DNA of 64,000 nt, taken from Komagataeibacter medellinensis NBRC 3288 (lineage in GTDB: Bacteria > Pseudomonadota > Alphaproteobacteria > Acetobacterales > Acetobacteraceae). The DNA is taken from NCBI RefSeq assembly GCF_000182745.2, contig NC_016027.1, forward strand, positions 871,001 to 935,000. The letters run 5' to 3'. The notes beneath the pieces were generated by a model. The model did no database searches. It saw only the letters and a list, made by a program, of their open reading frames with translations, and had not been told where the DNA came from. The position numbers and the translations under genes are program-made. Below, one piece after another: positions 12,982-30,260 of the stretch (its first letter is position 1; each line of letters starts with the position of its first letter).

Positions 12982-13437
12982 GTGTTCCCCGCACGCGCGG
13001 GGATGAACCGATCACCGTTCTTGATTCGCCGCTGACCTCTGGGTGTTCCCCGCACGCGCGGGGATGAACCGCGGGGATATGCCTGTATCTGGTGCAGAAC
13101 AGGGTGTTCCCCGCACGCGCGGGGATGAACCGGTGTTATCCTTCAGGATGCGGCAATCACGCCAGTGTTCCCCGCACGCGCGGGGATGAACCGGCCGACA
13201 ACGCGGCCATCCAGGCATCGTGAGCGTGTTCCCCGCACGCGCGGGGATGAACCGCCTGCTTGCGGGCATGATAGGCGTCAAGGCGCGTGTTCCCCGCACG
13301 CGCGGGGATGAACCGTTCAGGCGACCGCAAAGAAGCAGGCAGAAGAAGTGTTCCCCGCATGCGCGGGGATGAACCGTAATCCACAATGTCCGGGTCGTTC
13401 TCAAAGGCGTGTTCCCCGCACACGCGGGGATAAACCT
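12982..13437 (+). CRISPR. Type I-E CRISPR array 1 (8 repeats, 7 spacers)
   Basis: Repeats of 29 bases start at 12982, 13043, 13104, 13165, 13226, 13287, 13348 and 13409, with a strict 61-base period and 32-base spacers. Each begins GTGTTCCCCGCACGCGC and ends GGGGATGAACCG, the type I-E form. The leader is on the left, so transcription is rightward, opposite to arrays 2 and 3. The seventh repeat has one change and the eighth is degenerate (ends GATAAACCT), as expected for the trailer end. The repeat equals that of array 3. No cas genes adjoin this array. Confidence 0.98.
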
Positions 13438-13794: not shown

Positions 13795-13885
13795 GTGTTC
13801 CCCGCGCATGCGGGGATGAACCATCGTCGTGGATTTTCCGGTCAACCGGAACCGTGTATCCCCCCGCACATGCAGGAATGAACCG
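13795..13885 (+). repeat. Relic CRISPR repeat-spacer-repeat unit
   Basis: A near-consensus repeat at 13795-13823 (GTGTTCCCCGCGCATGCGGG, then GATGAACCA) is followed by a 30-base spacer-like stretch and a more decayed repeat with an insertion at 13854-13885 (starts GTGTATCCCCCCGCAC, ends GAATGAACCG). The unit has the same orientation as array 1 but is about 360 bases beyond its end, so it looks like the remains of an older, longer array. Confidence 0.8.
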
Positions 13886-18938: not shown

Positions 18939-19882
18939 CGGTTCAGCCTCGCGTATGCGGGGAACACGCTAATGTTAGAATAAGGTTAGCTCCCTCGATC
19001 GGTTCATCCCCGCGTGTGCGGGGAACACGATCATGTCATGAACGAAGCGCTGTGCCGGTCCGGTTCATCCCCGCGTGTGCGGGGAACACAGACGTACGGA
19101 ATGGGAATAAGTTTTTTGTTACGGTTCATCCCCGCGTGTGCGGGGAACACCCGACCGTAAAATCCAGACGGAAGGCCGCCGTCGGTTCATCCCCGCGTGT
19201 GCGGGGAACACTCCTGCGTGAAGGTGGTCAGCTTGCCTTCCAGCGGTTCATCCCCGCGTGTGCGGGGAACACCACAACGGCATGTCGGGCGTTGCCCCAG
19301 CCGTCGGTTCATCCCCGCGTGTGCGGGGAACACAGATGCCGACCGATCTGCGTCAGTGCACCCAGCGGTTCATCCCCGCGTGTGCGGGGAACACCACGAT
19401 TGCACGGCGCTGGGCCGCAGATAGAACGGTTCATCCCCGCGTGTGCGGGGAACACTTCAAAACGAAGTTCGTAAAATAGCAGATTTCCGGTTCATCCCCG
19501 CGTGTGCGGGGAACACCTATCCAGCCAGGTGGTGAAATCGTTGAACGCCGGTTCATCCCCGCGTGTGCGGGGAACACTTAGTATGAGTGGGACAGTTGGG
19601 AAAACGACACGGTTCATCCCCGCGTGTGCGGGGAACACGCCAGACGGCGCACAGTATCATTGTTGGCGATCGGTTCATCCCCGCGTGTGCGGGGAACACA
19701 TGTTTCGAGTCCGCGGGAATGGCTGCGTGAGCGGTTCATCCCCGCGTGTGCGGGGAACACCAGGGACCGGCGCTGTTCGTATGTCACAGCCTCGGTTCAT
19801 CCCCGCGTGTGCGGGGAACACCCGCGCACGTCACCATGCAATGCAGCATCGCCCGGTTCATCCCCGCGTGTGCGGGGAACAC
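18939..19882 (-). CRISPR. Type I-E CRISPR array 2 (16 repeats, 15 spacers), beside cas2
   Basis: Repeats of 29 bases begin at 18939 (degenerate, three changes), 19000, 19061 and every 61 bases to 19854; all spacers are 32 bases. On the plus strand each reads CGGTTCATCCCCGCGTGTGC then GGGGAACAC. The leader is at the right, next to cas2, so transcription is leftward. The repeat differs from arrays 1 and 3 by one base in the loop (T for C). The internal repeats are identical, indicating a recently active array. Confidence 0.99.
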
Positions 19883-26110: not shown

Positions 26111-26142
26111 TTAAATAGACATTTCCAGAGAAATATTCCAAA

Positions 26143-26295
26143 ACTCTGGCTGCCAGTTGCAGCTGGCAACCAGAGTCCGATTACACAAGCGCCTGAGGCG
26201 CGTAGTCTAATCTGACAAACGTGTACCGCACGTTACGCACCTTTCCTGATTTCTTTGCCGCCACGCAGGGCTTTCGCCCGGCGTGGCTTTTCTTT
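26143..26295 (+). ncRNA. Structured intergenic stretch, possible small RNA
   Basis: The gap between cas8e and cas3 contains a strong hairpin at 26143-26176 (ACTCTGGCTGCCAG paired with CTGGCAACCAGAGT), smaller hairpins at about 26190-26202 and 26219-26234, and a terminator-like hairpin (GCCACGC/GCGTGGC) followed by TTTTCTTTTT at 26287-26296. On the plus strand this has the layout of a roughly 150-base small RNA. Read leftward instead, the first hairpin with its TTTT could act as an attenuator before cas8e. No known RNA family is recognised and no open frame is evident. Confidence 0.35.
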
Positions 26296-26502
26296 TTAGC
26301 GACATTTCCCATCCAGCGGAAACCGATTTTCTTCTTTTAATACCTCAAGACTTGTTTCTTAACAAGAATTCTAATCAAGTTATTGTTTTTAATGTATAAA
26401 ATTTTCAGGAAATTATGCTCTTTTTTGAACGAAGCTACCAAAAAAGCAGATGTTTGCCCTATCATCCATTGGGAAACGGCATGCCCCATGCGACAGGACA
26501 TG

Positions 26503-26595
26503 CCGTATCCATCCCTGCATATGCGGGGAACCCCAACCATCTGATACTACAACAGATACCACAAGACGGTTCATCCCGCCGGGGCGGGAACGACC
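26503..26595 (-). repeat. Decayed two-repeat mini-array between cas3 and cas8e
   Basis: Two repeat-like sequences, about 26503-26531 (TCCATCCCTGCATATGCGGG then GAACC) and 26567-26595 (CGGTTCATCCCGCCGGGGCG then GGAACGACC), start about 62 bases apart, matching the CRISPR period and the orientation of arrays 2 and 3. They enclose a 35-base spacer-like stretch. The second overlaps the end of cas3: its TGA stop lies in the GATGAACCG part of the repeat. Transcribed leftward, it would follow cas3 directly. Confidence 0.7.
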
Positions 26596-29438: not shown

Positions 29439-30260
29439 CCGTTTAGCCCTGCGGGTGCGGGGAACACCACCGCCCAGTTGCTTGTCCGTGATACCCAGAC
29501 GGTTCATCCCCGCGCGTGCGGGGAACACCACGACCACGTCGGGCAGCAGTTCCGGCACGACGGTTCATCCCCGCGCGTGCGGGGAACACGAGCCACACAA
29601 CAATTACAACCGGCACTACTACGGTTCATCCCCGCGCGTGCGGGGAACACGTTCTGCGGCCAGTTTGCGGGATGATCGGGGTCGGTTCATCCCCGCGCGT
29701 GCGGGGAACACCTCCAAATGGAGCCGACAAACCGCAATATTGCCGGTTCATCCCCGCGCGTGCGGGGAACACAAATCATCGGAAATTTTTTCCTGTCCGG
29801 TCTGCGGTTCATCCCCGCGCGTGCGGGGAACACAGGGTATGTGGCGAATGACGGGAACGGTGCACCGGTTCATCCCCGCGCGTGCGGGGAACACTCTGAT
29901 ATAGACGCGAGGACATTCCCCAGCGTCGGTTCATCCCCGCGCGTGCGGGGAACACTCTGCCGCCACCTGTGTGGACACCCACGGGCGCGGTTCATCCCCG
30001 CGCGTGCGGGGAACACGCCATATGAGCGGGTTGGACAAAGATACGCCGCGGTTCATCCCCGCGCGTGCGGGGAACACGCATTGCCACGCATGGAAATGCC
30101 CGAATTGATCGGTTCATCCCCGCGCGTGCGGGGAACACTTCTTTGGCCCGATACCAGGTGAGCGTTCCGTCGGTTCATCCCCGCGCGTGCGGGGAACACG
30201 AGGCACCTGTAGGTGCTGGCAAGTCGGTAATCGGTTCATCCCCGCGCGTGCGGGGAACAC
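29439..30260 (-). CRISPR. Type I-E CRISPR array 3 (14 repeats, 13 spacers), upstream of cas3
   Basis: Repeats of 29 bases begin at 29439 (degenerate: CCGTTTAGCCCTGCGGGTGC), 29500, 29561 and every 61 bases to 30232, with 32-base spacers. On the plus strand each reads CGGTTCATCCCCGCGCGTGC then GGGGAACAC, the same as array 1. The leader is at the right and transcription is leftward, toward cas3. The trailer-end repeat lies about 157 bases before the chosen cas3 start. Confidence 0.99.

Follow-up and report, generated by a model that had tools for sequence, protein, structure and literature searches.

A candidate CreTA-type module in the type I-E CRISPR locus of Komagataeibacter medellinensis

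CreTA modules have been described for the type I-B systems of Haloarcula hispanica and Halobacterium hubeiense (PMC8501985), and they are covered in reviews (PMC12737573, PMC12948488). According to the available text of the original report, the CreA guides pair through positions 1–5 and 7–11 beside a PAM at the toxin promoter, leaving positions 6 and 12 free, while CreT has a stem-loop in addition to start signals and a pair of rare codons (AGA or AUA). In each of the two tRNA-sequestering CreT reported there, the paired codons are identical (PMC8501985). The cas-regulating RNAs known as CreR are given for types I-B, I-E and V-A in the accessible part of PMC13131331. Among the open-licence papers listed by our literature searches, none dealt with a CreTA- or CreR-type module in Acetobacteraceae. 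Bacterial CreTA were reportedly predicted in papers of 2021.

We analyzed a stretch of 64,000 nt from K. medellinensis NBRC 3288, hereafter the window, in which NCBIfam models identified a complete type I-E operon on the minus strand (cas3-cas8e-cse2-cas7-cas5-cas6e-cas1-cas2) with a gap of 460 nt between cas3 and cas8e. This locus probably encodes a CreTA-type module of the type I-E system. The reading is built on what the sequences themselves displayed, namely the anatomy of the locus, its target, the agreement of guide and target across genomes, and rare codons at a fixed position. In the window we found a creA unit, an AAG-flanked seed match, and a mini-ORF with a start codon, tandem rare codons (which differ from each other) and a stem-loop. 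The genes and the creA-like unit are arranged as follows.

29366–26571, minus strand: cas3 (NCBIfam TIGR01587 and TIGR01596, both above cut-off)
26595–26567, minus strand: psiR1, a degenerate CRISPR repeat overlapping the end of cas3 (local repeat score 13)
26574–26567, minus strand: 3' handle of psiR1, ATGAACCG, 8/8 identical to the array repeat
26573–26571, minus strand: TGA stop codon of cas3, within the psiR1 handle
26566–26535, minus strand: guide insert psiS, TCTTGTGGTATCTGTTGTAGTATCAGATGGTT, 32 nt (33 counting 26534), between psiR1 and psiR2
26534–26505, minus strand: psiR2, the second degenerate repeat (local score 14 against the array repeat)
26110–24467, minus strand: cas8e (cse1; TIGR02547), first gene of the Cascade operon

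The repeat scan located type I-E arrays at 12982–13437, 18939–19882 and 29439–30260, with 8, 16 and 14 repeats, respectively; the first is oriented opposite to the other two, and all 35 array spacers in the window (35/35) are 32 nt long. Lone repeat-like copies outside the arrays were listed by the same scan at 13795, 18125 and 18319, with 4, 5 and 3 mismatches, and are possible further ectopic guides or remnants.

Both psiR1 and psiR2 share the orientation of the cas genes, which is also the crRNA reading direction of the flanking minus-strand arrays, and they enclose a pseudo-spacer outside any array, as in creA. Compared with the array repeat, the stem part is identical at 14/21 positions in psiR1 and 16/21 in psiR2, and the handle at 8/8 and 4/8. 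In a chance control on the 530-nt gap, with both strands and 500 dinucleotide shuffles, a best score of 13 was reached in 2 shuffles and a score of 14 in 0. The initial annotation had placed two degenerate type I-E repeats in the gap, in cas orientation, and these scores bear it out; the 35-base insert it had given between them measured 32–33 nt. In predicted folds, psiR1 forms a 5-bp stem with a 4-nt loop, of a stability usual for its composition (z −0.3). The psiR2 repeat hairpin is absent from the minimum-energy fold (z +0.6), which leaves 3' processing of the guide uncertain.

The site that psiS would address lies 240 nt upstream of cas8e, among the following elements.

26441–26412, minus strand: other candidate promoter, TTGGTA-N18-CATAAT, from the promoter scan
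26365–26337, minus strand: candidate promoter TTGTTA-N17-TATTAA, found by eye, 8/12 of the consensus, below the scan threshold, overlapped by the target
26353–26351, minus strand: AAG, PAM of the target, directly before the protospacer
26350–26319, minus strand: target (protospacer), matched by psiS at positions 1–5 and 7–11 (26350–26340)

Within the first 11 positions, psiS (TCTTGtGGTAT) and its target (TCTTGaGGTAT) differ at position 6 alone. The resulting 10/10 seed match behind an AAG was equalled in 0/1000 dinucleotide shuffles; past position 11 the match is poor, with 15/32 identities overall. In the 3.5-Mb genome, AAGTCTTGNGGTAT has 1 exact copy, at the target, and one more site at 1 mismatch. 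AAG is the type I-E PAM in E. coli, and its role here is backed only by the family pattern given below; three of the 35 array spacers, searched singly as independent PAM evidence (two against plasmids, one against phages), gave no match. The initial annotation had compared the insert with the upstream region by eye and had reported a weak, PAM-less match near 26,185. That site is not the best one, and the search of the insert for a PAM-flanked seed match upstream of cas8e, which the annotation had put forward as a check, led to 26350–26319. A foreign origin of psiS was also considered and dropped, since neither psiS nor the gap region had a match in the plasmid collection.

We then compared this region across related genomes. 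We found cas8e in 60 of the 397 Acetobacteraceae genomes searched, counting that of the window, and took the upstream DNA of all 60 (less than 700 nt, up to the contig end, for L021 and L039; a few cas8e matches were partial). The last 800 nt before cas8e were scanned for modules and 17 were kept, L010 being left out as a near-duplicate of L009. The choice was made by eye from the repeats while the target matches were also visible, a procedure that favors the CreTA reading, and the scan itself demanded a psiR1 handle. The handle is better kept in psiR1 than in psiR2 in all 17 modules, partly by construction for that reason, and the stem part is better kept in psiR2 in 15/17. Most two-repeat creA are described as having the same division, with the better handle in psiR1 and the better stem in psiR2, and creA with one repeat and a 5' handle only exist as well (PMC8501985).

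The inserts of the 17 modules vary between genomes. An AAG-flanked site with at least 8/10 seed positions was found in the module's own gap in 14/17 cases (seven with 10, four with 9 and three with 8), compared with 4/272 swapped guide-gap pairs, all four among the close relatives L002, L003 and L004. In the other three modules, the site is on the opposite strand behind ATG (L012, 9/10), behind AAT (L020, 8/10) or behind ATG (L045, 10/10). Over the 14 modules, the number of matches at positions 1–5 was 14, 14, 14, 13 and 14, at position 6 it was 3, at positions 7–11 it was 14, 12, 12, 12 and 11, and at position 12 it was 2; positions 13–17 matched in 13, 13, 11, 10 and 9 modules, and those from 18 on in at most 7. 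The difference between the seed positions and positions 6 and 12, the latter two reported as non-pairing in creA (PMC8501985), was significant (Fisher p = 5e-16). Position 18 was tried as a third non-pairing position (5/14 matches) and rejected, positions 19–32 being about equally low. The comparison across genomes, which the initial annotation had suggested for related strains, gave inserts that differ and targets that in most modules follow them.

As a control on the selection, candidates were recounted by rule and blind to the target. Handle and stem were both present in 34 candidates from 29 loci, and 21 of these (in 20 loci) also had a psiR2 motif. A downstream AAG site with at least 8/10 seed positions was present for 15/21 of those with the motif (14/20 without L010) and for 0/13 of those without it. 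The 21 comprised all 17 kept modules together with L010, L007, L060 and a second L012 site, the last three having no match. Named relatives with a module and an AAG site include K. melomenusus, Novacetimonas hansenii, Acetobacter farinalis, Gluconacetobacter diazotrophicus PA1 5, Humitalea rosea, Siccirubricoccus phaeus, Gluconobacter japonicus and Oryzibacter oryziterrae. When the search was widened to the class, Cse1 matches turned up in 11 of 385 genomes, including that of the window; among the other 10 loci, 6 were read, and modules were found in L061 (ATG, 8/10), L063 (AAG, 9/10) and L067 (AAG, 10/10). Those of a further set of 78 loci that lie outside Alphaproteobacteria yielded no convincing module in a scan that depends on a handle resembling ATGAACCG and is blind to repeats of other kinds. 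Judged by these sequence comparisons, the matching pattern would be hard to obtain by chance, shared ancestry or decay.

Several single loci depart from the usual layout. The guide inserts of L002, L003, L004 and L012 are 19–21 nt long, compared with about 32 nt usually, and such short guides may favor repression over cleavage. In L099 (Nguyenibacter vanlangensis), creA is followed, still within the cas3-cas8e gap, by a real array, and the creA guide matches 10/10 at an ATG site near cas8e, with mismatches at positions 6 and 12. For L007/L079 (Novacetimonas maltaceti), we saw no convincing guide module and recognized no cas3 end upstream by eye; L007 has a target-like ATG-TCTTGTACCATTTAGG upstream of cas8e. 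The cas3 of K. melomenusus (G391) contains one in-frame TAA, and cas3 fragments occur in G254, G340 and G780 of the same genus.

The overlap with the end of cas3 was noted in the initial annotation, which had the TGA encoded in repeat-like sequence, and this is correct. Placing the Cas6e cut by the 8-nt 5' handle rule gives a predicted cut between 26575 and 26574, with the cas3 TGA 1 nt downstream of it. With the cut 1 nt before the stop, excision of the guide would yield a stop-less cas3 message at such a locus. Of the 17 modules, 9 have the cas3 stop 1 nt downstream of the predicted cut and 6 have it 7–11 nt upstream, while in the remaining 2 it lies 77 and 38 nt downstream. A nonstop-cas3 mechanism was accordingly rejected as a general rule and is at most common.

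Between the target and cas8e, the minus strand contains the elements of a CreT-like leader.

26287–26260, minus strand: stem-loop 1, upstream of the Shine-Dalgarno region (49-nt stretch 26252–26300, z −4.0)
26247–26236, minus strand: Shine-Dalgarno region, AGGAAAGGTGCG, upstream of the mini-ORF
26231–26181, minus strand: creT-like mini-ORF of 16 codons with a GTG start, between the target and cas8e
26213–26208, minus strand: codons 7–8 of the mini-ORF, AGA TTA, the two rarest codons
26177–26142, minus strand: strong stem-loop between the mini-ORF and cas8e (51-nt stretch 26132–26182, z −6.9, 0/200 shuffles equally stable)

AGA and TTA occur at 0.33 and 1.26 per 1000 codons, respectively (15083 codons in 32 window ORFs, made up of 7 cas genes plus 25 long ORFs of other kinds); when the cas genes are counted by themselves, ACT ties with these two as rarest. 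The corresponding tRNA-Arg(UCU) and tRNA-Leu(UAA) have one gene each among 47 tRNA genes, as do many other tRNAs. The Shine-Dalgarno of the window is moderate and weaker than those of relatives.

Rare-codon mini-ORFs were chosen by reading in 10 loci, that is, in nine of the 17 kept modules and in L103. Codons 7–8 are AGA-AGA in L004, L012, L015, L017 and L022, ATA-ATA in L002 and AGA-TTA in the window, and a single rare codon is present in L009 (TTA at 7), L023 (AGA at 8) and L103 (TTA at 8). In all, AGA, TTA or ATA occupies codon 7 in 8/10 mini-ORFs, codon 8 in 9/10 and codons 2–6 in 0/50. Among 83 Shine-Dalgarno-led ORFs from 42 module-free loci, codon 7 or codon 8 was rare in 9/83 and both were in 1/83, a control that is indicative because the mini-ORFs were picked by reading. 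Outside Acetobacteraceae, L067 reads ATG ACC ATC AGG ATA TAA and L061 has AGA AGA at codons 11–12. In L045, a Shine-Dalgarno followed by ATG AAG TAA lies between target and cas8e, a minimal minigene. DNA resembling the creT region was found in 2/19 genomes of the genus, both with a full-length cas3 match; the match between the two is 70% over 136 nt, so orphan toxins could be missed. In Gluconobacter, an 81-codon frame (L031 and L095) was tried as a protein toxin and rejected, its differences being spread evenly over the codon positions (14, 17 and 14) with no sign of protein constraint.

The initial annotation had proposed a guide of the CreR or CreTA kind. The guide idea gained from the AAG, the 10/10 seed and the genome-by-genome matching. 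The toxin-like mini-ORF downstream of the target, with its two rarest codons, was not part of that annotation and shifts the interpretation from a sole CreR to something closer to CreTA. That the guide would autorepress the cas8e promoter and nothing more, the mini-ORF in K. medellinensis NBRC 3288 being a non-toxic or decaying leader, is the strongest alternative and, in our view, an unlikely one. It draws on the 8/17 modules without a rare-codon mini-ORF (L003, L014, L019, L020, L026, L031, L045 and L048), which mean that creT is not universal; L019, for example, has ATG TGA, with ATA AGA at the corresponding place. In N. hansenii (L003), the corresponding leader has lost its start and Shine-Dalgarno while the guide-target match is kept at 10/10. 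L014 and L026 lack a mini-ORF and, with 89 and 127 nt, respectively, separating the target from the cas8e match, have little room for a toxin gene; by their sequence these two look like plain CreR. Type I-E CreR are also reported, as far as the consulted part of the source goes (PMC13131331). Against simple autorepression in the window stand its start codon, the two rarest codons at 7–8 and the strong stem-loops, and a CreR is generally uncoupled from a toxin gene, whereas here a creT-like mini-ORF is present, if it is a toxin.

A 16-pair stem in the window ends 31 nt before cas8e, and the 75 nt before the mini-ORF start gave z −2.6. Across loci, the RNA 3' of codon 6 is stabler than shuffles in 12/12 (z −1.7 to −7.3), and folding of the 75 nt before the start is less clear (z −0.7 to −6.7). 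The terminator scan listed no terminator-like site between mini-ORF and cas8e; its sole minus-strand site, 26579–26561, falls inside creA and is at chance level (shuffle mean 1.0). The last stem-loop was rejected as a terminator, as the scan lists none there and 5 T in 8 bases follow it in 1/12 loci only; in the other 11/12, the 8 bases past the stems before cas8e contain at most 4 T. For lack of any terminator-like site in this interval, the promoter in front of creT probably serves the Cascade operon as well. The Cascade mRNA would then probably have creT as its leader, which would place toxin and Cascade under joint control of the guide.

A rare-codon mini-ORF followed by a strong stem-loop so close to cas8e also recalls an attenuator, in which the guide represses the promoter and rare-codon stalling in a leader peptide sets stem-loop folding and hence cas8e expression. 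We regard this as improbable, given that codon identity shifts among AGA, ATA and TTA between relatives, so that no single amino acid is sensed, and that T-rich tails (5 T of 8) are missing past the stems in 11/12 loci. Finally, the view that the unit could equally be a relic of a dead array, or else a mini-array serving ordinary immunity, can point to the degenerate repeats and to the orphan copies elsewhere in the window, but it is contradicted by the own-versus-swapped comparison and the target-blind recount, by a match that persists despite diverging sequences and whose mismatches fall on positions 6 and 12, the non-pairing ones, and by the absence of psiS from the plasmid collection, and is very remote.

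For the CreTA-type module, the mechanism that we infer comprises guide processing, repression, toxicity and a shared promoter. The psiR1-psiS-psiR2 unit (creA) would be transcribed with or after cas3, and Cas6e would cut this transcript into a crRNA-like guide. Guide-loaded Cascade would then use seed positions 1–5 and 7–11 to bind the partial match behind AAG, upstream of cas8e, and would block transcription, the pairing being presumably too limited to recruit Cas3. The repressed transcript would start with creT, that is, with the Shine-Dalgarno, the start, AGA-TTA at codons 7–8 and the strong stem-loops. Ribosomes would stall on creT, and tRNA-Arg(UCU) and tRNA-Leu(UAA) would be sequestered. 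The guide would thereby silence the toxin and, through the shared promoter, place the Cascade level under feedback; loss of the CRISPR system would release the RNA toxin and poison the cell.

More tentatively, and with less confidence than for the module as such, these elements may be combined into a joint reading with one Cascade-repressed promoter for toxin and Cascade operon, removal of the cas3 stop, and CreR and CreTA as two states. A mild loss of free guide-Cascade, through many crRNAs or a partial anti-CRISPR block, would raise Cascade, and a collapse of guide-Cascade would free a toxin draining two different rare tRNAs. Cas6e excision would remove the cas3 stop from the mRNA and couple Cas3 output to guide production. 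The toxin might be gained or lost between relatives, making CreR and CreTA states of one module.

If the CreTA reading is true, it places the tRNA-sequestering type of CRISPR toxin-antitoxin in type I-E, and acetic-acid bacteria have a corresponding family of modules whose guides visibly change along with their targets. Two questions become testable, namely how CreR and CreTA interconvert and whether immune dosage control and addiction can share a single promoter. Such a module would be easily missed, given its degenerate repeats and its overlap with the cas3 end.

Among the systems most akin to this one are the haloarchaeal type I-B CreTA as described in the available text (PMC8501985). Both have one or more degenerate repeats with a pseudo-spacer, a seed of exactly 1–5 and 7–11 with a PAM, and an RNA with a start codon, consecutive rare codons and a stem-loop, whose toxicity here we infer. 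Unlike those modules, the window presents a bacterial type I-E system with its rare codons at 7–8 and a mixed AGA-TTA pair, a creA that overlaps the cas3 stop, and a creT that is seemingly the leader of the Cascade operon. The Acinetobacter type I-F CreTA shares the location between cas3 and the first Cascade gene, the Shine-Dalgarno with mini-ORF and the two psiR, to the extent covered by the accessible text (PMC10097628). CreR RNAs are similar in that a guide from a mini-CRISPR, only partly complementary to a cas promoter, brings about autorepression, which would apply here as well; unlike the window, they are generally uncoupled from a toxin in the portions of the sources at hand (PMC13131331, PMC12737573, PMC12948488). 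In Francisella scaRNA/Cas9, an ectopic repeat likewise yields a gene-repressing guide, although that system, in the part of the report consulted, is of type II and represses a lipoprotein operon (PMC9458426).
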